Part shown: positions 1-54,772 of the stretch, piece after piece
How the letters are laid out: every line of letters starts with the position of its first letter
How positions within the stretch are numbered: position 1 is the first letter of the stretch
Made by a program: the position numbers and the translations under genes
The notes under the pieces: model-generated
What the model was told of the DNA's origin: nothing
The model's input: only the letters and a program-made list of their open reading frames with translations
The model's database searches: none
Source: Gammaproteobacteria bacterium
Lineage (GTDB): Bacteria > Pseudomonadota > Gammaproteobacteria > Steroidobacterales > Steroidobacteraceae
NCBI GenBank assembly: GCA_016874055.1
Contig: VGVG01000007.1
Coordinates: 1 to 61,190, forward strand
DNA: 61,190 nucleotides
Direction: 5' to 3'

Positions 1-1531
1 CGATAATGCCGTTGGCGATGATATTGCCCGTCGAATCACGTGTCGTGTTGCGGTAGTAATAACCCGTGCCGAGTTGCGACTCGGCTTCGCTGAACGCGTA
101 AGACGCGCCCGTGCGGTACTCCCACTCCCACTCATCGAGAAATACCACCGGCCCGTCCGCTCCGAGGAACACGCGACCGGTCTCGGTAGTCGTCTCGATT
201 TCACGACGACCGCACCCCATGCAGCGCCAGCGGTAGGTCATGGGCAGCCCACGACGCGGCGCGAGGGTCGGGAAAACAGCGACGAGCTGATCAAAGACAC
301 GGTCATAAACCGCTTGCGACGCCGCATTCCGCGGGAAGGCGTAGTTCTGCGTACTCGTGTTGGGCGTGAGCTGCAAGTTTGAAAAGCGCTTCGCCGAGTC
401 GGCCTTAGAACCCGTCACTTCGGCAGCGACTTGATGCGAGCCGAGTTGCAACACACCGCGGCTCACAAGGTTCAAGGTTTCGATCGGTTGCTGCAACACT
501 GCCGCACGACCTGTATCCCACGCACAGGCGAATTCTGCCTCGGGGAAATTCCACAGCCGAGTATCGTACGGCTGCATACCGTCGATCTGGCTACAACCTC
601 CGCCCCCAGGGAGATCGAGCGGATTGATACCGCCCGAGGCGCGAATCGTCGTACCAGGCAGGAAGGGCGCAAGGTTGGCACCGCTGCCATTCATGACCGT
701 TCCTAATGGAGTATTTGGACCGACCCCACTTCCAGCCATCGGTAAAATAGTCGCGAAGGGAGTACCACGCGTATCGACGGAGACGCCGCGTTCCGGTTGG
801 AATGTATTGACGAAATCACGCGAGTCACCTCGCAATTCGCGGTGATCGCTAAACGAGATCGTGGCCATGACGTTCCAACCGTCGGAACTAATATCGCCGA
901 GGCCACCCGTTATCGAGGCACGATAAATCGCACCACCCCCGAGCTCCGTTACATCACCGAAGGCATTCGTTGAGAAGCCCTGAAAGTTATTTTTGAGGAT
1001 GAAGTTGATGACGCCACCGATGGCATCAGTACCGTAGATCGCCGAGGCGCCGTCCTTAAGAATCTCGACTCTCTCAATCGCAGCGAGCGGAATTTGATTG
1101 ATGTCAACAGCTCCGCCGTTCAAACCGTGCGCCGCAACGCGACGACCGTTGAGCAGGATGAGCGTAGCGGCCGAGCCTTGACCACGCAGATTAGCCGACG
1201 AGGCTCCGTTGTTACCGCGTTGCGCGCCACCGACGACGTCCGCATTAGAGGCGAGGTTGTCGAGTCCGTTGCCGTTCGAGTTAAGGTAACTAATTAACTG
1301 CTCGGGGCTGGTGATGCCCTCACGTCGAATGTCTTCGGTGCTCAGCACCTGAATAGGCAGGGCGCTCTCGGTGACCGCACGCTTGATGCTCGAACCCGTC
1401 ACGACGACGGTCTCGAGTCGTCGATCGTCATCTGCTCCTGATGAGCCTGCGGTCTGCTGCGCCCACACCGCACTACTGAAAACCAGACTTGCGATAAACG
1501 CGCTGACAACTGCTCCACGCTTAGACGACAT
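1..1531 (-). CDS. TonB-dependent outer-membrane receptor, N-terminal part
   Basis: The reverse-strand frame is open from an ATG at 1531, preceded by a good ribosome site (AAGAGGAGAG), to the window edge, about 510 residues. It starts with a signal peptide ending SAVWAQQ. A TonB-box-like ETVVVTG and the plug domain follow, with RREGITSPEQLISYLNSNG, RGQGSAATLILLNGRRV and VEILKDGASAIYGTDAIGG, and then the first strands of the beta-barrel. The C-terminal barrel lies outside the window. Such receptors import siderophores, cobalamin, sugars or other large ligands across the outer membrane using TonB energy. The LLNGRRV/IPLAAIERVEILKDGASAIYG style is typical of the large receptors of Gammaproteobacteria that take up organic polymers. 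The ligand cannot be told from this part. Confidence 0.93.
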   Translation of the reverse strand, partial: MSSKRGAVVSAFIASLVFSSAVWAQQTAGSSGADDDRRLETVVVTGSSIKRAVTESALPIQVLSTEDIRREGITSPEQLISYLNSNGNGLDNLASNADVVGGAQRGNNGASSANLRGQGSAATLILLNGRRVAAHGLNGGAVDINQIPLAAIERVEILKDGASAIYGTDAIGGVINFILKNNFQGFSTNAFGDVTELGGGAIYRASITGGLGDISSDGWNVMATISFSDHRELRGDSRDFVNTFQPERGVSVDTRGTPFATILPMAGSGVGPNTPLGTVMNGSGANLAPFLPGTTIRASGGINPLDLPGGGGCSQIDGMQPYDTRLWNFPEAEFACAWDTGRAAVLQQPIETLNLVSRGVLQLGSHQVAAEVTGSKADSAKRFSNLQLTPNTSTQNYAFPRNAASQAVYDRVFDQLVAVFPTLAPRRGLPMTYRWRCMGCGRREIETTTETGRVFLGADGPVVFLDEWEWEYRTGASYAFSEAESQLGTGYYYRNTTRDSTGNIIANGII

Positions 1532-1627: not shown

Positions 1628-1927
1628 TCAGCGCGTCGGCGGAGTTTTGGCGCCTTGCCATCTTAACGCCAGATCCGCGAGATGCGCCACGAGGGAAAGC
1701 ACGAGCAAGATTGCCACGTCCCACCAAGGTGCGCGCGCTAGTGCCGCGCCTACGGTCAGCATCAAGCAGGCACCCGAGGCGAGATTGCCAATAATCGCCC
1801 GCGGGTCGATTCCCAGACCGCGGGCTCGCCACAGCCAAACCAGGAGAACAGCCTCAAGAGCGACCAGCCTCGCAATGAGCCGAGGCAAGCTACCGCTCTC
1901 TATCCCGCTGATGACCCAATCGATCAC
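1628..1927 (-). CDS. Small multi-helix membrane protein behind bchP
   Basis: This is a 99-residue protein read from a GTG at 1927, eight bases after the bchP stop on the same strand. The longer open frame beyond this point overlaps bchP and is not protein-like. Hydrophobic segments at about 16-34 (LIARLVALEAVLLVWLW), 43-65 and 68-90 (WWDVAILLVLSLVAHLADLAL) predict three transmembrane helices. I do not recognise the family. Its position directly behind bchP suggests it was part of the same photosynthesis-related operon, but that is inference. The reading frame is intact, unlike its two upstream neighbours. Confidence 0.6.
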   Translation of the reverse strand: MIDWVISGIESGSLPRLIARLVALEAVLLVWLWRARGLGIDPRAIIGNLASGACLMLTVGAALARAPWWDVAILLVLSLVAHLADLALRWQGAKTPPTR

Positions 1928-1934
1928 TGCAGGA

Positions 1935-3143
1935 TCAGGCGACTTTCGCGATACCGAGTAGGTGGGCGAGATCTTTGAAGAACACCCGGACGTGCGCCAT
2001 CGGGCTCTTACGAACGAACTGTTTGTGCATGTGCGCCTCCCAAGTGAGACGCTGCACATCCGGATCGCGGCACATTTTGACGAAGCGTTCGCGCCGCTGG
2101 TCGCTCACGTACCAGAACCGCTGCAGCAATCCGAGCACCCAGAACACCCATCCGTGGGCTCGCATGAAATCGCGGCGGGCCTCACGCAGCGCATGCGTAT
2201 TACGCGTCACCAGACACTTATCGATGGCGCGCACAGCCATTCGGCCGCAAGCCATGGCGTAGTAGATCCCCTCGCCCGATGCTGGCGCGACGACGCCTAC
2301 CGCATCACCCGTCACGAGCACGTCACGCCCATTGTCCCATCGGCGCAGCGGCTTCAAAGGAATCGGCGCACCTTCACGTCGCACCACCTCTGCGTGTTCG
2401 AGTCCCGTCACGCGCCGCAATCCTCCCACGGCATTGCGAATGGAAAAGCCCTTCAGCGCCGTGCCCGCACCCGCGCTGATGGTATTCCCGTGCGGGAACA
2501 CCCATGCATAAAAATCGGGTGAGAGTCGCCCGTCGTGATACACGTCGCAGCGGGTGCCATCGTAGTTGGCGGGCGGCATTTCAGGTCTACGGAGGATCTC
2601 ATGATACGCATAGAAATACGGCGTCGCCCGCCCTCCGGCGATGCACTACCGGGCGACCTCGGATCGTGCGCCGTCAGCGCTTAGCACAAGGCGTGTGCGT
2701 ACCTGCCTGAAACCCCCATCCTTTTGCTCAAAATGGACGATGGCATCAGCATCGGCATCGCGCTCAAGACGCGTAAACATGCCATCGACTCGCAGCGCGC
2801 CAGAGCATCGTGCGCGCTCGCGAAGCCACTCGTCGAACACCTCTCGGTCCACCATGCCGACCTACCCGCCCTCGATCGGCATGTCCACGGACCTTGCAGA
2901 CGGCGAGACCATACGCGCCGAAGAAATGCGCGCAACCAGCAACTCGGGCGGAATTGCAAATTCTTCAACGAGTTTCGGCGGGATCGCGCCTCCGTGGGGT
3001 TTAATACGACCGGCGCGATCGAGCAGCAGTACGCGCCAGCCTTCGCGAGCCAGATCGTCTGCAGCCGTGGCGCCCGCGGGACCGCCGCCGATCACGACGA
3101 CATCGACTTCTTTGACCATCTCGAAAGCTTCAAGCGCATGCAT
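1935..3143 (-). pseudogene. bchP: bchP-like geranylgeranyl reductase broken by two in-frame TAG codons
   Basis: One continuous reverse-strand frame of about 400 codons encodes a geranylgeranyl-diphosphate/bacteriochlorophyllide reductase (BchP/ChlP). It has an FAD-binding VVVIGGGPAGATAADDLA, then RIKPHGGAIPPKL, GMVDREVFDEWLRERA, ADGARSEVAR, YDGTRCDVYHDGRLSPDFYAW, GDAVGVVAPASGEGIYYAMA and a C-terminal FFKDLAHLLGIA, all hallmarks of BchP. The frame is interrupted by TAG at 2862-2864 (between IEGG and VGMVDRE, where relatives usually have an aromatic residue) and TAG at 2646-2648 (between EVAR and CIAGG). No frameshift is needed to join the three pieces. In phototrophs this enzyme reduces the geranylgeranyl tail to phytyl. 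Two nonsense codons plus a truncated pucC next door indicate recent loss of function. TAG readthrough is less likely because TAG is an ordinary stop elsewhere in the window. Confidence 0.88.
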
Positions 3144-3146
3144 GGC

Positions 3147-3473
3147 TCAACCCCTCCCCGCTTCGGTCACATACGTCGTCGATACGCCTTGGATGTCGAC
3201 CTGCATGGGGGACTGAGTATCCTCGCGACTAAGACGTACGGCGAAAGCCGTCGCCAGCACGAAGAGCGCTGCTTCGGCGACAAACACCGAACCATAGGCT
3301 GCTGGCAACGAGCCGGTCAGTGCGCGGGCGAGATCTACGGCACCGGTTGCGGCAATGCCACCGATACCGAATGCAATGGCTTGCGCAGCACCCCAAAGAC
3401 CCATTCGCGTGCCTTCGCGCGATTCAGTTTGGCCGTGAAGCCCCTGTTCGCGGTGGAGAATAGCAGCGGCCCC
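3147..3473 (-). pseudogene. 3' remnant of a PucC/BCD-family transporter gene
   Basis: The frame from a TGA at 3474-3476 down to the stop at 3147 encodes about 108 residues. The part from REGTRMGLWGAAQAIAFG through AAYGSVFVAEAALFVLATAFAVRL matches the last two transmembrane helices of PucC/ORF428-type MFS proteins (bacteriochlorophyll delivery). Full-length members have well over 400 residues, so more than two thirds is missing. Only about 70 bases separate the break from the carbonic anhydrase gene. The stop lies three bases before the bchP start, matching the pucC-like/bchP order of photosynthesis gene clusters, where bchG normally lies further upstream. The residues before the REGTRM motif do not align convincingly and may be scrambled by the deletion junction. 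Confidence 0.7.
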
Positions 3474-3546
3474 TCAAACCATGTACTTGCGGGCCGCATC
3501 CTCGCACCGAACGAAACGCCGCAGTTGCGCGATCGGATTCTCGAGT

Positions 3547-4089
3547 TCATCCGTGCCCTGTCGCCGGCGACGGGTGCGCCTTGAGCGACTCGCGATACTG
3601 CTGTGCTCGCCGCGCGTAGCTCGCTGCGGCGCCGCGGATGAGCGCGAGATCGCGTTCGCTTACTTCACGCATAATTTTTCCGGGTGAACCCATCACCACG
3701 CTGCCCTCCGGAATTTCTTTATCCGGCAGCACAAGAGCGCCGGCTGCGATGATGCAATACCTGCCGATGACGCTTCGATCGAGCACCATGGCGCCGTTGG
3801 CGATCAACGACTCGTCACCGACCTCACAGCAATGCAGGAGGGTCTTATGACCAACCGTCACGCGTGTACCAAGCCGCGTCGGTACGCCCTCATCCGTGTG
3901 GATCACTGAACCGTCCTGAATATTAGTGCCGGGGCCGACGTCGATCCAGTCGTTATCACCGCGTAAGACCACCTGGAACCAGACACTTGCGCCCTCCGCG
4001 AGCCGCACGCTGCCGATCACGTCGGCCGAAGGAGCGACGTACGCATCGGGTGCGATCTCCGGTCGGCGAGCACCGATCGTATAGAGCAT
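3547..4089 (-). CDS. Gamma-class carbonic anhydrase family protein
   Basis: This 180-residue protein is a left-handed beta-helix of hexapeptide repeats (SADVIGSVRLAEGASVWF, NIQDGSVIHTDEG, VTVGHKTLLHCCEVGDESLIANGAMVLD). The three metal-ligand histidines of the family are visible in VIHTDEG, VGHKTLLH and the following turn. The length and the VVMGSPGKIMREVSERDLALI helix match the YrdA/PaaY-type cytosolic proteins. Some members hydrate CO2 and others act on CoA thioesters, so the substrate is open. Its ATG overlaps the stop of the upstream lipoprotein gene (TAATG at 4087-4091), so the two are probably co-transcribed and coupled. It directly borders the truncated pucC remnant. Confidence 0.9.
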   Translation of the reverse strand: MLYTIGARRPEIAPDAYVAPSADVIGSVRLAEGASVWFQVVLRGDNDWIDVGPGTNIQDGSVIHTDEGVPTRLGTRVTVGHKTLLHCCEVGDESLIANGAMVLDRSVIGRYCIIAAGALVLPDKEIPEGSVVMGSPGKIMREVSERDLALIRGAAASYARRAQQYRESLKAHPSPATGHG

Positions 4090-4508
4090 TAGGGTTTCGC
4101 CGTCTCGCGCATCGTCGTATCCCGAGTAGCCTTGCGATCGACCTTCATACGCGCCAGGTCGACGGGACGCATCTCGACGATTGGGCAGGACTCGTTTTCC
4201 ACGAGCACCTTATCGAAGCGGGTGATTGTGCGTCCCGTTTGCGTCACCCGAATGGCGTTAGCGAAGCTAAGGTTGATGCACCCCTCCCAGACCTTAATCA
4301 ACCAGGCCTCATTTAACCCCGTCCAGATTACGAGTTGGTTGCGCGAAATCGGTGTCCACCCGTCGACGCCCTTCATCGATCGAATCTGCTCGACGGGTTC
4401 ATCCGCGTAGTCGACGTAGCGGACATCCACGGTCTCGCGTTTGGTGAGGCCCGATGCACAGGCGGACAGCAGCGCGACCCCGATCACCCCAAAAACGAGC
4501 GTTTTCAT
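4089..4508 (-). CDS. DUF6491-type lipoprotein
   Basis: The chosen ATG at 4508 gives a 139-residue protein with a lipoprotein signal (MKTLVFGVIGVALLSAC, lipobox LSAC). The open frame extends 18 codons further upstream, but that part has no signal character. The mature part has the conserved order of the DUF6491 family: MKGVDGWTPISRNQLVIWTG, then NEAWLIKVWEGCINLSFA with a cysteine, then a second cysteine in ENESCPIVEMRPVD. The two cysteines probably form a disulfide in the periplasm. The function is unknown. It overlaps the carbonic anhydrase start by one base and is divergent from the Yip1 gene, with about 110 bases between for promoters. Confidence 0.82.
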   Translation of the reverse strand: MKTLVFGVIGVALLSACASGLTKRETVDVRYVDYADEPVEQIRSMKGVDGWTPISRNQLVIWTGLNEAWLIKVWEGCINLSFANAIRVTQTGRTITRFDKVLVENESCPIVEMRPVDLARMKVDRKATRDTTMRETAKP

Positions 4509-4617
4509 GACTTTACCCCCAAAAACCATAGTCGTAAGTTTATCGACCCGTCCTTCAGCCACAATGTGCCTCCCTAACGTGCTAGAGTTGGGTGTTTTAC
4601 GTAAAGATTACGCGCCC

Positions 4618-5304
4618 TTGAAAGACCTCATCGATATCTTCCTCGATCCCAGCTCAGTGCTCTCACGGCAGCGCGAGGAGGCACGCTGGTGGCTACCGCT
4701 CATGTTACTCGTGGTCTCGGCCGCCGCGGTCACCTATCTATTCTTAGGGAAGGTCGATTCCGCCTGGCTCATCGAGCAACAAATCCTGAACTCTGGCGAG
4801 GACGTCAGCGAGCAACAACTCGCCGCGATTCGCGGAGCCTCACCGGGCGGCAGTTTCGTGATCTGGAGCAGTACGATCGGCAGCGCCATCATGGTCGCCA
4901 CAGTCATGGCCCTTTTCGGTGGATTCTTCATGCTCGCCGGAAAATTCTCTAAAACCGATTTCACGTTTAAGCACGGACTGACACTCGCGAGCTGGTCGCA
5001 GATGCCAACGCTGATCAATACACTCCTCATGCTGATCGGCGTCCTGTCCATGTCGCCTCAGACCTCGTTGGAGTCGCTTTCTCTCACCAGCCTCAACGCA
5101 CTGTTCCTCGACTTGCCGGCGGATGACCCTTGGTACAGTTTCGCCACGACTTTCAGTGTGCTCGTGCCTTGGACCATCGTCCTTGCAGCCCTCGGCTGGA
5201 AACTTTGGAGCGGTGCTACCCGCTGGACCGCACCGCTCCTCATCGCAACTCTTCCCCACTTCATCATCTACGGAGCCATGGCCATCTGGGCCATGACACG
5301 CTGA
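4618..5304 (+). CDS. Yip1-domain membrane protein
   Basis: A TTG at 4618 gives a protein starting LKDLIDIFLDPSSVLSRQ, the usual beginning of bacterial Yip1-domain (COG1284/DUF1282-like) proteins. An ATG at 4564 in the same frame is the alternative. A hydrophobic helix (WWLPLMLLVVSAAAVTYLFL), a periplasmic-looking loop (EDVSEQQLAAIRG) and four further membrane helices end in LPHFIIYGAMAIWAMTR, for about 228 residues. The role of bacterial Yip1 proteins is unclear. It lies six bases before the exporter adaptor gene, and this Yip1-MFP-ATPase-permease order suggests that it belongs to the export system. Confidence 0.8.
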   Translation: MKDLIDIFLDPSSVLSRQREEARWWLPLMLLVVSAAAVTYLFLGKVDSAWLIEQQILNSGEDVSEQQLAAIRGASPGGSFVIWSSTIGSAIMVATVMALFGGFFMLAGKFSKTDFTFKHGLTLASWSQMPTLINTLLMLIGVLSMSPQTSLESLSLTSLNALFLDLPADDPWYSFATTFSVLVPWTIVLAALGWKLWSGATRWTAPLLIATLPHFIIYGAMAIWAMTR

Positions 5305-5310
5305 GCCCCT

Positions 5311-6543
5311 ATGAATATTTATGCCTTCAAAAATATTAAGTTCGACAAACGCTGGATCGGTGGCGGACTCGTCGTCCTCGCCATCGCCGTGCCGCTGCTG
5401 GTACGTCAGCTCTCCGGCGCCGGCGCCACACCCGTCGACATGACCACGGTCTCACTGCAAAACGTCAGACCCAGTATTCTGGCCTCGGGAACACTCGCCT
5501 ACCGCACGGAGGTCAACCTCACGGCCGAAGTGACAGCGCGTGTGGCAAGCATCCTCGTGCAAGAGGGCGACAACGTGACGCACGGGCAGCTTCTGCTGCG
5601 ACTTGACCCCGAAACGTACAACAACATCATTGCGCGTGAAGAGGCCAGCGTTCGCCAGAACCGTATCAGCATCGATCGTCAGCGTGCCGTGGTCGCCTTA
5701 CGCAAGCAGCAATACGAGCGTAGCCAAAAGCTTGCTGCGTCGAACCTCATCGACAAGAACCGCCTCGATGAAGATCGCAATCAGTTCATCGTCGCCGAAG
5801 CCGATCTGCGCAGCTCGGAAGAAGCGTTACAAAGAGCAACTGCGGTACTCGGCGATGCCAAAGAGCAGCGAGCTAAAACCGAAATCCGTGCGCCCATCGC
5901 CGGTCGCATCGTATCGCTGCCAATCAAGGCGGGCGAAGTCGCCATTCCCTCGACGGCCTCCCTCGCGGGTGCGCAGCTCATGAAAATTGCCGACGTATCG
6001 GCGATCACCGCTGAGGTCAAGGTCGATGAGGCCGATGTCGCCAAGATCACACTCGGTCAACGTGCGGACGTGTTCTCCGCGGCCTATCCCGACACGGCAC
6101 TTCCGAGTAAAGTCGAAAAGATCGCACTCACCCCGACCGTCGATGGTCAGGGCCGCTCATACAAAGTCACACTCGCAATCGATGCACCGCAAGATCTGCT
6201 GTTGCGATCAGGGATGAGTGCGCGAGCACTCGTCTACCTCGGCGATGGCGCTCGCCGACTCGCAGTACCCGTTGAAGCCGTCGTCACAGAAACGCCCGAG
6301 AAAAACATCGTCAAGCGCTATGTGTGGCGCAGCGACGAGGGCGTCGCACGCAAGATAGCCATCGTCACCGGCCTCTCCGACGATCGGTGGGAAGTCATCG
6401 AGTCCGGCATCATCGAGGGCGCTAAAATCGTCACCGGCCCGAGCAAAACCCTGCGACGACTCAAAGACGGAGAGCGAGTTGCACAACGCCCCGCTGATGC
6501 GAGCAGACGAAATGGCACCGAAACCGAGGGCGAGGTGGAATGA
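5311..6543 (+). CDS. Periplasmic adaptor (membrane fusion protein) of a MacAB-type exporter
   Basis: The protein is 410 residues with one N-terminal membrane anchor ([17 protein letters not shown]). A biotinyl-lipoyl-like half follows ([32 protein letters not shown]), then a coiled-coil hairpin at about 105-195, the second lipoyl half ([20 protein letters not shown]), a beta-barrel ([21 protein letters not shown]) and a membrane-proximal domain. This is the HlyD/MacA architecture. It links the inner-membrane ABC complex to an outer-membrane channel. Its last codons overlap the ATPase start (6540-6543, ATGA), so the two are translationally coupled. No outer-membrane TolC gene is present here. 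The substrate is unknown. Confidence 0.92.
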
Positions 6544-7229
6544 TTGAGCTGCAAGGCATCGTCAAACGTTACGTCCTCGGCGACGAGGAGGTACTCGCAC
6601 TTGCCGGGGTTGATCTTTACGTCGGGCGTAACGAGTACGTCGCACTCATCGGCCCTTCAGGTTCTGGAAAATCTACGCTTATGAATATCATCGGATGTCT
6701 CGATAGCACGAGCGAAGGTCGATACATCCTGAACGGCCGTGACACCTCGTCCTTAAGTGAGGAAGAGCTCGCGGCAGTTCGTAATCGTGAGATCGGTTTC
6801 GTATTCCAAAGTTTTCATCTTCTACCGCGGCAGACTGCGCTGCAGAATGTGATACAGCCTCTCGTATATCGACGCATGCCGCCCGCCGAGCGTCGTGAAC
6901 GAGCTGTCGAGGCGCTTCGCAATGTGGGACTCGGTGATCGTCTCGATTTTCGACCGAACCAATTGTCGGGTGGACAGAGACAACGCGTGGCTGTCGCCCG
7001 AGCGCTTGTCGGCGAGCCGTCGATCTTGCTAGCCGACGAACCGACCGGCAACCTCGACTCTCGAACCTCAGCCGAAATCATGTCCCTATTCGATGCTTTA
7101 CATGCTCAGGGGCAGGCGGTCTTCGTCGTCACGCACGAGCCTGATATCGCCGCGCATTGTCGACGTACCATTCGAGTCTTCGACGGACGCGTCGTCGAGG
7201 ATCATCAAAATCCGGCTCGCGCCGCTTAG
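6540..7229 (+). CDS. ABC transporter ATPase, MacB/LolD type
   Basis: This 229-residue cytosolic ATPase has Walker [10 protein letters not shown], the Q-loop in [15 protein letters not shown], signature LSGGQRQR, Walker [13 protein letters not shown] and the switch histidine in [14 protein letters not shown]. This is the MacB/LolD/FtsE subfamily that works with FtsX-like permeases by mechanotransmission. It starts inside the adaptor stop (ATGA) and ends with TAG, 11 bases before the permease ATG. With its neighbours it forms a tripartite exporter in which ATPase and permease are separate polypeptides, unlike the fused E. coli MacB. Confidence 0.95.
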
Positions 7230-7240
7230 GATTTTTGGAG

Positions 7241-8461
7241 ATGGGTATCTTCGCAGAAGCCTTTCAAGCCGCCCTCGCCAACCTCAATGCACATCGTCTA
7301 CGCAGCTTCTTAACGACGCTCGGTATCCTCATCGGCACCATGGCGGTCATCGCCGTCGTATCGGTTTTACAAGGCTTCTCGGACTCGATCAGCAGTCAGT
7401 TTTCGGATCTTGGCAGCAACACCCTCACGCTCGAAGCTAAGAACGATCAAGAGAACTTTCGCTCGGGTCAAATTAATCGCCTCTCCTTCGAGGACGTCGA
7501 TGCGCTGCGTTTCAGGGTGTCGGGCATCGAGCGCGTAGCGCCCATCATCAGCGCGCCGCTCGGCGCCACGCTGTATCGCGGTCGCAGCGTCACGCCGCAG
7601 GTGCTCGGCGCCACCGAAGAAGCCCAAGACGTACTGGGCGTCGATACCTCGATCGGTCGATTCATCACCGCGAGCGACGAGCGCAACAGTCGGCGCGTCG
7701 CGGTGATCGGCACCGAGGTCCGCGATGAGCTGCGCATGCCGCGCGATCCGGTGGGTGAGTTCATCCTCATCGGTCGCGAGTGGTTCCGAGTGGTAGGGCT
7801 ACTCGAGAAGCGCGGCGAGATCTTTGGTTTTAGCCAGGATAACCGAGTTTTTATGCCGTTCAGCGTCGCCCGCTCACTGACCGGCACCTTCGAGCGCACC
7901 TTTATGGAAGTATCGTTCACGGTCACGAATCTTACCGAGGTCAATCAAGTCAAGGAGCGCGCCATGCGTACCGTGCGTGCTTCGCGCGGCATCGAGCCGG
8001 GCAAACCCGACGACTTCGAGATTGAGGCGGCTGATGCCTTCGTCAAACAATTCAATCGTATCACCGCCACCGCGACGGCGGTGCTCGCGGGCATCGTCGG
8101 TATTTCTCTGCTCGTCGGCGGCATCGGCATCATGAACATCATGCTGGTGTCGGTGACCGAACGAACGCGCGAGATCGGCATCTTAAAAGCGTTAGGTGCC
8201 ACGCGCCGCGACATTCTCATCCAGTTCTTGCTCGAAGCCGCGCTGCTGTCGCTGCTCGGCGGACTCATCGGCATGGTGCTTGGACTGCTCGCCGGAATGG
8301 GTATTGCAGCATTGATTCCGAACTTCCCGCCGGCGCACGTCCCGATCTGGGTAATGATCGCAGCCGCAGGCTTCTCTGCGCTCGTTGGCGTGGTATTTGG
8401 TATCGCGCCGGCCTCGAAGGCCGCGAAACTCGATCCGATCGAAGCCTTGCGTTACGAGTAG
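7241..8461 (+). CDS. ABC transporter permease, MacB/FtsX type
   Basis: The ATG at 7241 (site GGAG) gives 406 residues. An upstream extension in the open frame is not protein-like. An N-terminal helix (SFLTTLGILIGTMAVIAVVSVLQG) precedes a large periplasmic MacB-PCD domain of about 230 residues. Three C-terminal helices close the FtsX domain, with GIVGISLLVGGIGIMNIMLVSV, the cytosolic coupling motif TERTREIGILKALGATRRDI and GVVFGIAPASKAAKLDPIEALRYE. It completes the exporter with the preceding adaptor and ATPase. It converges with the beta-propeller gene, the two coding ends overlapping by ten bases. Confidence 0.95.
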   Translation: MGIFAEAFQAALANLNAHRLRSFLTTLGILIGTMAVIAVVSVLQGFSDSISSQFSDLGSNTLTLEAKNDQENFRSGQINRLSFEDVDALRFRVSGIERVAPIISAPLGATLYRGRSVTPQVLGATEEAQDVLGVDTSIGRFITASDERNSRRVAVIGTEVRDELRMPRDPVGEFILIGREWFRVVGLLEKRGEIFGFSQDNRVFMPFSVARSLTGTFERTFMEVSFTVTNLTEVNQVKERAMRTVRASRGIEPGKPDDFEIEAADAFVKQFNRITATATAVLAGIVGISLLVGGIGIMNIMLVSVTERTREIGILKALGATRRDILIQFLLEAALLSLLGGLIGMVLGLLAGMGIAALIPNFPPAHVPIWVMIAAAGFSALVGVVFGIAPASKAAKLDPIEALRYE

Positions 8462-9405
8462 CCCTCGCCCTTGTACTCCACAATGCCGGCGACCGCCTTC
8501 GGCGCTTGCGTGGCGATGCTGCCCACCTTTGCACCTGACCTTAGATCGATCTTCGCCACCTCGCCAGTGAAAAAGTTGCTGACGAAAACGTGCTGTCCAC
8601 CGCCTGCAAGTTCGATCAGCGCCCAACCGAAGCCCTCGAGCGGAATTTGATGCGTCGTCGTACCGCTGGCATCGACGAGGTGGATCGAACCGCTGCGCAG
8701 CGCATACACGATGCCGTCGGCAGCACAGACCATGCCGAAGAACATCGGTGGCGGACCCGGCGGAAACGGCGGTATGACCGCCTGCAAGTCGGGTAGCTGC
8801 CGATCGTTGACGAGGTCGTAACGCATCAGGCGCGTACCCGTCTCGGAGGTGTACACGAGCGTTCTCTGATCGGGCGATAGCGTCGACATGGTAACGCCGA
8901 GAAACCCTCCCATGCCGCCGTGAGTCTCGGTGCCGTATTCTTTGACGAGCTTGCCGTCTGCGGTAAATAGGAAGACATGACCGTCTCCGAATCGTTGTGT
9001 GCCCGGCATGAACGGCAAGCGTGTCTTCATGCGCGCCTGCACCTCGGGTCTGATCGATCCGCCGACCACGTGCTCGCCCATCAAGAGCATGCCGTCGGCA
9101 GCAAAGTTCACGTGCGAGAACGCGCGCGTACCAAACTCCGGACGACGCACCACACGACCATCACGATAAATATTCAGCACCACGAACGAGTGGCTATCGA
9201 AGGCCCACAGCACGCCCTTCGAATCGAACTTCAAACCGCCGACGAGGTGCGTCGTCTCGTCCAACCACAGCTCGCCTTTGGGTGCGAGATTGGCATCGAA
9301 TTGCAGAATGCGGCCGCGGCCGGCGTGATCGTCGTCGGCGTTGTTGAGCTGAGTCGCACCAACAAAGAGGTCACCGTTCAGGAACGGCTGTAGTGAGGAA
9401 CTCAT
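8452..9405 (-). CDS. SMP-30/NHL-like beta-propeller protein
   Basis: The 317-residue protein has no signal peptide. It is made of propeller-like blades with repeated VxALRSGSIHLVDASG, GDGHVFLFTADGKLVKEYG and HVFVSNFFTGEVAKIDLRSG segments, as in SMP-30/gluconolactonase-like and YncE-like six-bladed propellers. The catalytic metal ligands of true gluconolactonases could not be placed with confidence, so an enzymatic role is not claimed. It may bind or hydrolyse a small molecule. It lies upstream of and parallel to nothing obvious: seven bases separate its start from the stop of the next SDR gene on the same strand, so the two are probably co-transcribed. Confidence 0.72.
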   Translation of the reverse strand: MSSSLQPFLNGDLFVGATQLNNADDDHAGRGRILQFDANLAPKGELWLDETTHLVGGLKFDSKGVLWAFDSHSFVVLNIYRDGRVVRRPEFGTRAFSHVNFAADGMLLMGEHVVGGSIRPEVQARMKTRLPFMPGTQRFGDGHVFLFTADGKLVKEYGTETHGGMGGFLGVTMSTLSPDQRTLVYTSETGTRLMRYDLVNDRQLPDLQAVIPPFPPGPPPMFFGMVCAADGIVYALRSGSIHLVDASGTTTHQIPLEGFGWALIELAGGGQHVFVSNFFTGEVAKIDLRSGAKVGSIATQAPKAVAGIVEYKGEGYS

Positions 9406-53532: not shown

Positions 53533-54501
53533 TCAGCCGTAGAGCGTTCCAGTGTTGATGACAGGCTTCGCCTCGGAATCGCCGCAGAGCACGACCATGA
53601 GGTTGCTCACCATCGCGGCCTTGCGCTCGGCGTCGAGTTCGACGACGTTGCGCTCGGCAAGCGCAGCGAGAGCCGTCTCAACCATGCCGACGGCACCCTG
53701 CACGATCTTCTGTCGCGCGGCGAGCACCGCTTCGGCCTGCTGGCGACGCAGCATGGCCTGAGCAACCTCCGGCGCGTAAGCAAGATGCGTCAGGCGAGCC
53801 TCTTCGACCACCACGCCAGCTGGCGCGAGTCGCGTTTGCAACTCGGCCTGCAGCGCTTGCGAGACCTCATCGACGCCGCTGCGCAGCGTAATCTCGTGCT
53901 GTTCGCCGTGATCGTAGGCGTATTGACTGCCGAGGTGACGGACCGCTGACTCCGACTGGATGCGCACGTACTCATCGTAGTCATCGACGTCGAACATGGC
54001 TTGTGCGGTGTCCTGCACGCGCCACACCACAACCGCGGCGATCTCGATCGGGTTGCCCCGCTTGTCGTTGACCTTCAGGCGCTCGCCATTCAAGTTACGT
54101 GCGCGCAGCGAAATCTTCTTTCTTGGATTTTTCTTGATGGCGACCCGCGCACCGTCTTTGCCGACGGGCATCTGTATGCCACTGCCGTTCGAATAGAACG
54201 GATTACCGAAATGAAAGCCATCCTTGCGCACCGTGCCCTTGTAGTCGCCGAAGAGCACGAGCACACGTGCCTCGTTAGGCTGCAGCGTGAAGAACCCAGA
54301 CAAAGAAAAGAAAAACAGAGTGAGCAAGGCGAGGCCGATCGCGGCTGAGGAGCCTGCATCGGCGATGGCTGCGTGAACCATTCCGGCGACGCCGCCCGCC
54401 AGCAAGGCGATGACGATCGGCAGTGCTACCCAACCGCTGCCGACCGAAACTTCGCGTTCGCGACTGGCAGCGCGCGAGGGGGTGATTGAGGCTGATGACA
54501 T
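53533..54501 (-). CDS. SPFH (stomatin/prohibitin-like) membrane protein
   Basis: The ATG at 54501 follows AGGAGCGTC. The 322-residue protein has two N-terminal helices ([39 protein letters not shown]), then the SPFH domain starting [20 protein letters not shown] with [40 protein letters not shown] and [35 protein letters not shown] coiled-coil region at about 250-310 ([18 protein letters not shown]) follows. SPFH proteins form large ring scaffolds in the inner membrane that organise membrane domains or proteases. No NfeD partner gene is adjacent. Confidence 0.93.
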
Positions 54502-54561
54502 GATCGACGCTCCTGACTGGGGGGTGGGGAAACCACCGTGGGTCCCATCCCAATAGCGTAG

Positions 54562-54590
54562 ATATTATACTGATATCACTTAAGTATCAA
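54562..54590 (-). promoter_or_regulatory. Sigma-70 promoter of the SPFH gene with an internal dyad
   Basis: On the reverse strand TTGATA (54590-54585), exactly 17 bases, then TAATAT (54567-54562) form a near-consensus -35/-10 pair, about 60 bases before the SPFH start. The spacer contains ACTTAAGT, a perfect 8-base palindrome, flanked by TGAT and ATCA (inverted repeat arms). A repressor bound here would block the polymerase. The RHH protein encoded in the same operon is a candidate. The region is the most AT-rich in this area. Confidence 0.72.
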
Positions 54591-54607
54591 GTACCGTTTT
54601 AAATTGG

Positions 54608-54681: not shown

Positions 54682-54772
54682 GTCCTCTGAAAAAAGGCGC
54701 GAATCCTACCACAACACCCCGCACGCGCGAGGCCCCAGGGGTGTGGGATCCATCAGACGTTCGGCGGGGAAG

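Follow-up and report, generated by a model that had tools for sequence, protein, structure and literature searches.

A twice-interrupted bchP gene beside a probable photosynthesis-cluster deletion in a gammaproteobacterium

The gene for geranylgeranyl reductase of bacteriochlorophyll synthesis (bchP), when found at full length with two in-frame TAG codons, raises the question whether the enzyme is still made and, if not, what became of the pathway around it. Such a gene was found in a window of 61,190 nucleotides, the whole stretch of DNA analysed here, which is contig C7 of a metagenome-type draft genome (G000; 1.39 Mb, 29 contigs, 83.65% complete). The features around bchP, described with reference to the phototrophic relatives G014 and G019, are:

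1..1531, minus strand: receptor-like gene, presumably of the TonB-receptor type, whose open 5' part runs off the contig; on the bchP side it serves as the junction's anchor (88% to G014).
1631..1927, minus strand: small ORF of unknown family that looks like a membrane protein; it adjoins bchP on the downstream side and is kept in G014.
1935..3143, minus strand: bchP pseudogene (geranylgeranyl reductase, bacteriochlorophyll synthesis), full length, with two in-frame TAGs and no frameshift.
2646..2648, minus strand: second TAG in bchP; glutamine stands here in 28 of 29 aligned intact homologues and glutamate in one.
2862..2864, minus strand: first TAG in bchP; an aromatic residue occupies the site in each of the 29 aligned intact homologues.
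3147..3422, minus strand: 3' remnant (last 91 codons plus stop) of a PucC-family MFS gene, directly upstream of bchP; the gene precedes bchP in relatives.
3423..3437, no strand: putative deletion junction, about 15 bases aligning to neither side; the blastn alignments end at 3425 and 3448.
3438..3584, plus strand: 3' remnant (last 48 codons plus stop) of an alpha/beta hydrolase gene, which has 330 codons in G014, where it borders the photosynthesis cluster on its far side.
3547..4089, minus strand: intact gamma-carbonic-anhydrase-like gene (gamma-CA), the anchor past the cluster's far edge in relatives.

Read from 3143 to 1935 on the minus strand, the bchP frame consists of 402 codons and a normal stop (403 codons in all). 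It contains three stops (the two TAGs and the end), against 3, 7, 9, 9 and 17 in the other five frames. The three pieces each matched the BchP profile TIGR02023 on their own and in consecutive register (profile positions 2–83, 88–158 and 185–387). Singly they scored 264.9, 61.1 and 101.1 bits, under the curated cut-off of 343.3 bits; read through both TAGs the frame scored 470.4 bits and covered positions 2–387 of 388. A first-pass annotation of the window had described one BchP frame of about 400 codons broken only by TAGs at 2862 and 2646, with both flanks of each TAG preserved and no frameshift, and the reading of the frame, the score and the register bear this out. The uninterrupted frame that a BchP enzyme needs is lacking here, and the gene was therefore classed as a bchP pseudogene and not as a BchP enzyme.

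The sequence upstream of bchP is a remnant as well. PF03209 was matched over positions 330–399 of 401 only, and alignment to the corresponding ORFs of G014 (541 codons) and G019 (568 codons) was clear for the last 91 codons only. An MFS gene between bchG and bchP is described for Rhodoferax antarcticus, and reported for other purple bacteria, in the available part of one genome report (PMC5374385); this same neighbour order supports the identity of the PucC remnant. On the other side of the junction, about 20 kb past gamma-CA are colinear with G014. The DNA identity to G014 is alike on both sides (76–81%), as expected since both belong to one organism. The gamma-CA gene encodes 180 amino acids in the window and 173 in G014; the C-terminus differs, and the junction lies outside the gene.

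The content of the interval that is missing from the window can be read from G014. Homology to the window leaves contig C7 of G014 at 54714 and resumes at 89293, a step of ~34.6 kb. In that contig gamma-CA lies at 54079–54600, pufL and pufM at 74.2–75.9 kb and bchG at 87323–88162; the PucC-like ORF extends to 89571, followed by bchP from 89575. NCBIfam models assigned, over their curated cut-offs, bchO, crtI, crtD, bchC, bchX, bchY, bchZ, pufL, pufM, pufC, ispH, dxs, puhE, puhC, puhB, puhA, bchF, ppsR and bchG to the interval. Best matches below cut-off or to generic models were crtB, crtC, a prenyl diphosphate synthase (crtE-like), a methyltransferase (crtF-like), a P450 and an ATP-grasp-like gene; Pfam added DUF3422, a second PucC-family gene and a B12-binding gene (a few small ORFs are left out of this list). 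When the window was searched by tblastn with 35 G014 ORFs from the interval and its edges, gamma-CA, the tails of the hydrolase and PucC genes, and bchP were the only ones found, apart from a weak 30% match to the hydrolase at 48 kb. The flanks are thus retained and colinear, with the cluster genes missing between them. Beyond what the first-pass annotation had described, the locus holds the truncated pucC, the hydrolase tail and their junction, and a deletion of ~34.6 kb looks like the cause.

The relatives' cluster holds its own ispH and dxs (77160–80142 on contig C7 of G014), and both are lost with the deletion. A lethal loss of dxs together with the cluster was considered and dropped, because a housekeeping dxs is intact on contig C9 of G000.

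Absence of the cluster could in principle be original or derived, and the relatives were compared on this point. Twenty relatives matched gamma-CA. In seven of them (G001, G006, G007, G010, G014, G016 and G020) it shares one contig with pufLM and bchP, and in four more (G004, G008, G012 and G018) with pufLM alone, which places the cluster at the same site in 11 of the 20. The remaining ones have contigs of insufficient length or lack genes, and in G017 a different gene adjoins gamma-CA. In a DXS tree of 18 genomes, G000 formed one group with two phototrophs, G014 and G019 (support of the trio 0.997); a BchP tree built from 30 sequences joined it to G019 (0.922). Given the shared contigs and both trees, the ancestors of G000 had the cluster at this site and it has since been lost.

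The TIGR02023 search was extended to 98 genomes, 31 of which had a match over the cut-off; only that of G000 contained stops. Among the 23 other genomes of the genus, bchP was free of stops in 22, as one open frame in 20 and cut by contig ends in two (the G014 gene lies partly at the end of contig C7 and partly at the beginning of contig C14, and that of G011 runs into a contig end). The exception was G017, in which the profile search gave no match of BchP grade. Reaction-centre L/M genes (PF00124) were present in 20 of the 24 genus genomes and missing in G000, G017, G011 and G005, the last two of which are 77% complete.

The remaining pathway was then sought in G000 itself. At 83.65% completeness, no match was obtained for PF00124 (pufLM; E up to 1), nor for BchG, BchH or BchI. 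A single match of 27 residues (E 1.5e-4) was obtained with the bchL model, by which bchX is detected in relatives as well. The first-pass annotation had proposed a phototrophic ancestor that lost bacteriochlorophyll synthesis, to be checked by comparison with relatives and by a search for genes such as bchG and pufLM. The intact bchP and the cluster in the relatives, together with the absence of PF00124, bchG, bchH and bchI matches and the single short bchL/bchX match in G000, agree with that proposal.

In relatives, bchD, bchI and bchH lie together at one locus. BchH and BchI were also without match in G014 (95% complete), G004 (98%) and G008 (87%), although these have reaction-centre genes; their magnesium chelatase locus is either lost, too divergent, or not binned. 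Since G000 is incomplete and these three lack the same matches, the missing second locus is weak evidence when taken alone. The genes that flank bchD-I-H in G016 were not found beside that locus in G001, G003, G018 or G019. The cut-off for BchL, of the dark-operative protochlorophyllide reductase, was passed by none of the 24 genus genomes; G012 had strong partial matches at contig ends, and the others were apparently bchX. The genus may rely on a light-dependent protochlorophyllide reductase. A look through PMC7947762 for Gammaproteobacteria and a missing dark-operative enzyme gave nothing.

A second genome of the genus, G017 (1.4 Mb, 83% complete), gave no match for the reaction centre, BchG, BchH or BchI and none of BchP grade. 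On its contig C24, the place taken by the cluster in relatives is held by other genes: gamma-CA is followed by one that we take to be PhzF-like and then by a receptor gene. No cluster ORF of G014 was found on this contig. As G017 stands apart from G000 in the DXS tree, its state is a separate matter.

Overall, it is very probable that G000, whose genus is otherwise phototrophic, became non-phototrophic recently and that one deletion of ~34.6 kb stranded bchP, now a young pseudogene without function; this reading is drawn from comparison of genome sequences. A single deletion (its length as measured on G014) between the hydrolase gene and the PucC-like gene would have removed the reaction-centre genes, the carotenoid genes and most of the bacteriochlorophyll genes of the locus at once. 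The bchP gene, just outside the deletion, would have lost its upstream operon and its purpose, and would then have gained the two nonsense mutations. Several smaller deletions could yield the same gap.

The age of the loss was assessed from the selection on the bchP frame, as the first-pass annotation had suggested. A codon branch model on eight sequences gave an omega of 0.035 on the G000 branch versus 0.038 elsewhere, with omega 1 being 20 log units worse; an earlier fit on 12 sequences gave the same answer. Single control branches ranged from 0.011 (G013) to 0.114 (G006), and because of this wide spread the branch method is noisy. The G000 branch is moreover nearly saturated, so that omega shows no more than selection on bchP along most of that branch. 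The raised omega expected of an old pseudogene was not seen, which speaks for a young loss.

Changes private to G000 were counted against G014 and G019, with G003 as outgroup. The first part of bchP had 16 over 278 sites and the last part, which overlaps it, 6 over 163; the PucC tail had 3 over 91. The intact neighbours gave 13/171 (gamma-CA), 10/132 (DUF6491), 15/313 (SMP30-like), 9/131 (SDR), 5/229 (ABC ATPase), 8/402 (permease), 4/398 (macA) and 2/85 (small ORF). The missense pace of bchP falls among those of these neighbours, several of which are no slower; the stops therefore look recent, in line with the recent loss that the annotation had put forward. In six of the eight intact neighbours the private changes of G000 exceeded those of both G014 and G019. 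From these (3547–9405) and the longer DXS branch (contig C9), the G000 lineage appears to be fast in general.

At columns invariant among the 29 homologues, G000 departs at 7 of 159 and the others at 0 to 5 by leave-one-out. For the same 16 taxa, departures of G000 were 9/213 in bchP versus 4/326 in DXS (Fisher p 0.04), a weak sign. Conserved-site changes as proof of decay were weakened by G001, whose uninterrupted bchP departs at 9 of 223. The case for decay is thus made by the two stops and the lost partners, omega and the missense pace not being raised. At ~3% of substitutions, two stops correspond to ~67 neutral substitutions (range 8 to 241); on these sequence counts the loss looks young, though not closely datable from two stops.

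If the stops or other losses, for example that of bchD-I-H, came first and the 34.6-kb deletion later, the end state would be the same; we regard this as rather unlikely. The cluster-bearing G014 has no BchH or BchI match at 95% completeness and G000 likewise, which would suit such an order, but the absence in G014 may be a binning gap, G004 (98%) and G008 (87%) being alike. Furthermore, the little change in the PucC tail (3/91) and in bchP (16/278 and 6/163) leaves little time for a long dead period. Deletion before stops is the likelier order. A wider scheme, in which phototrophy is being lost repeatedly and stepwise with genome reduction in the genus (bchD-I-H first, being already absent from the G014 assembly; the main cluster by one deletion, as in G000; decay of the leftovers; no trace at the site, as in G017 with another gene beside gamma-CA), is put forward as a doubtful proposal. 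If true, the genus would hold several stages of the shift from light use to dark heterotrophy.

It is quite improbable that the TAGs stem from miscalled bases and the junction from misassembly, the cell being a phototroph in reality. In favour of this, the sequence is a metagenome-type draft in 29 contigs, with bchP 2–3 kb from a contig end; however, the order and orientation of both sides of the junction fit one colinear locus with equal divergence from G014, and no reaction-centre, bchG, bchH or bchI gene was found elsewhere in G000. In addition, among the G014 matches examined, bchP alone is interrupted within the body of the gene. Seven of the 24 G014 ORFs matched in the window at >60% identity contained a stop: in four the stops precede, by position, the start of the gene as it stands in the window, two more are ORFs that overlap another gene, and the seventh is bchP.

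That the TAGs are read through, by a suppressor tRNA or recoding, and BchP is made, is very improbable, even though the coding sequence is conserved on both sides of each TAG without frameshift. In the window TAG terminates the ATPase (7227–7229) and permease (8459–8461) genes, on which the first-pass annotation had already judged general recoding unlikely, and that judgement stands. Among 45 non-overlapping ORFs of at least 200 amino acids, 31 end in TGA, 9 in TAA and 4 in TAG, and one has no stop. The suppressor tRNA whose search had been recommended was not seen: ARAGORN found no CTA anticodon at the loci of 30 tRNA matches (one at a contig edge without a call, in an incomplete genome). Two TAGs were also considered as a sign of recoding in themselves and rejected, as ~45% of random nonsense mutations in bchP would be TAG and the chance of both being TAG is near 0.2. 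As the remaining pathway was not found, read-through is in any case moot.

Related geranylgeranyl reductases have other roles, and the bchP frame also matches models of other reductase families, but a different purpose in a non-phototroph, such as reduction of another isoprenoid, is hardly credible given that the frame scores best by far as BchP, stands in the bchG-pucC-bchP order of relatives and is broken, an intact enzyme being refuted by the stops unless these are errors.

Loss by deletion, followed by decay of bchP, can be set beside known systems. In Citromicrobium JLT1363, according to the part of the report available (PMC3338782), the photosynthesis cluster was lost with its flanks conserved. 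As in G000, a non-phototroph is nested among phototrophic kin, the flanking order is kept and the cluster is missing; in that account a single hypothetical gene replaces the cluster, whereas in G000 both cut genes are readable and nearly the whole of bchP is left. Citromicrobium belongs to the Alphaproteobacteria, G000 to the Gammaproteobacteria. The bchG-PucC-like-bchP block of G014, G019, G016 and others has the same genes, order and orientation as the part kept in G000, but G000 lacks bchG and most of the PucC gene, and its bchP carries two stops. The cluster of Rhodoferax antarcticus, in contrast, is intact, and the accessible portion of its report ties none of its pseudogenes to phototrophic energy conservation (PMC5374385). 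Gain and loss of the cluster are discussed, in the sections available, for Erythrobacter (PMC4919336) and for Rhodobacteraceae (PMC6052148), the latter presenting the scattered phototrophy of Proteobacteria, by loss or by horizontal gain, as a standing argument. UBA964, a genus of the Steroidobacterales, is listed among freshwater phototrophs in the part seen of a further report (PMC10976687). In the titles and abstract openings of the literature searched, with subscription journals largely outside, no description of a bchP remnant of this sort was found.

Loss of the photosynthesis cluster is thus a known process, of which G000 is a clean and early snapshot, unusual in its two cut edges and in a bchP that is almost complete and only freshly broken. 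A scar whose two edges can both be read, in a genus in which most relatives still have the cluster, provides direct evidence for loss by deletion in the argument over scattered phototrophy. G000 and its phototrophic relatives G014 and G019 also form a natural pair for asking which other changes accompany the abandonment of light by a bacterium.
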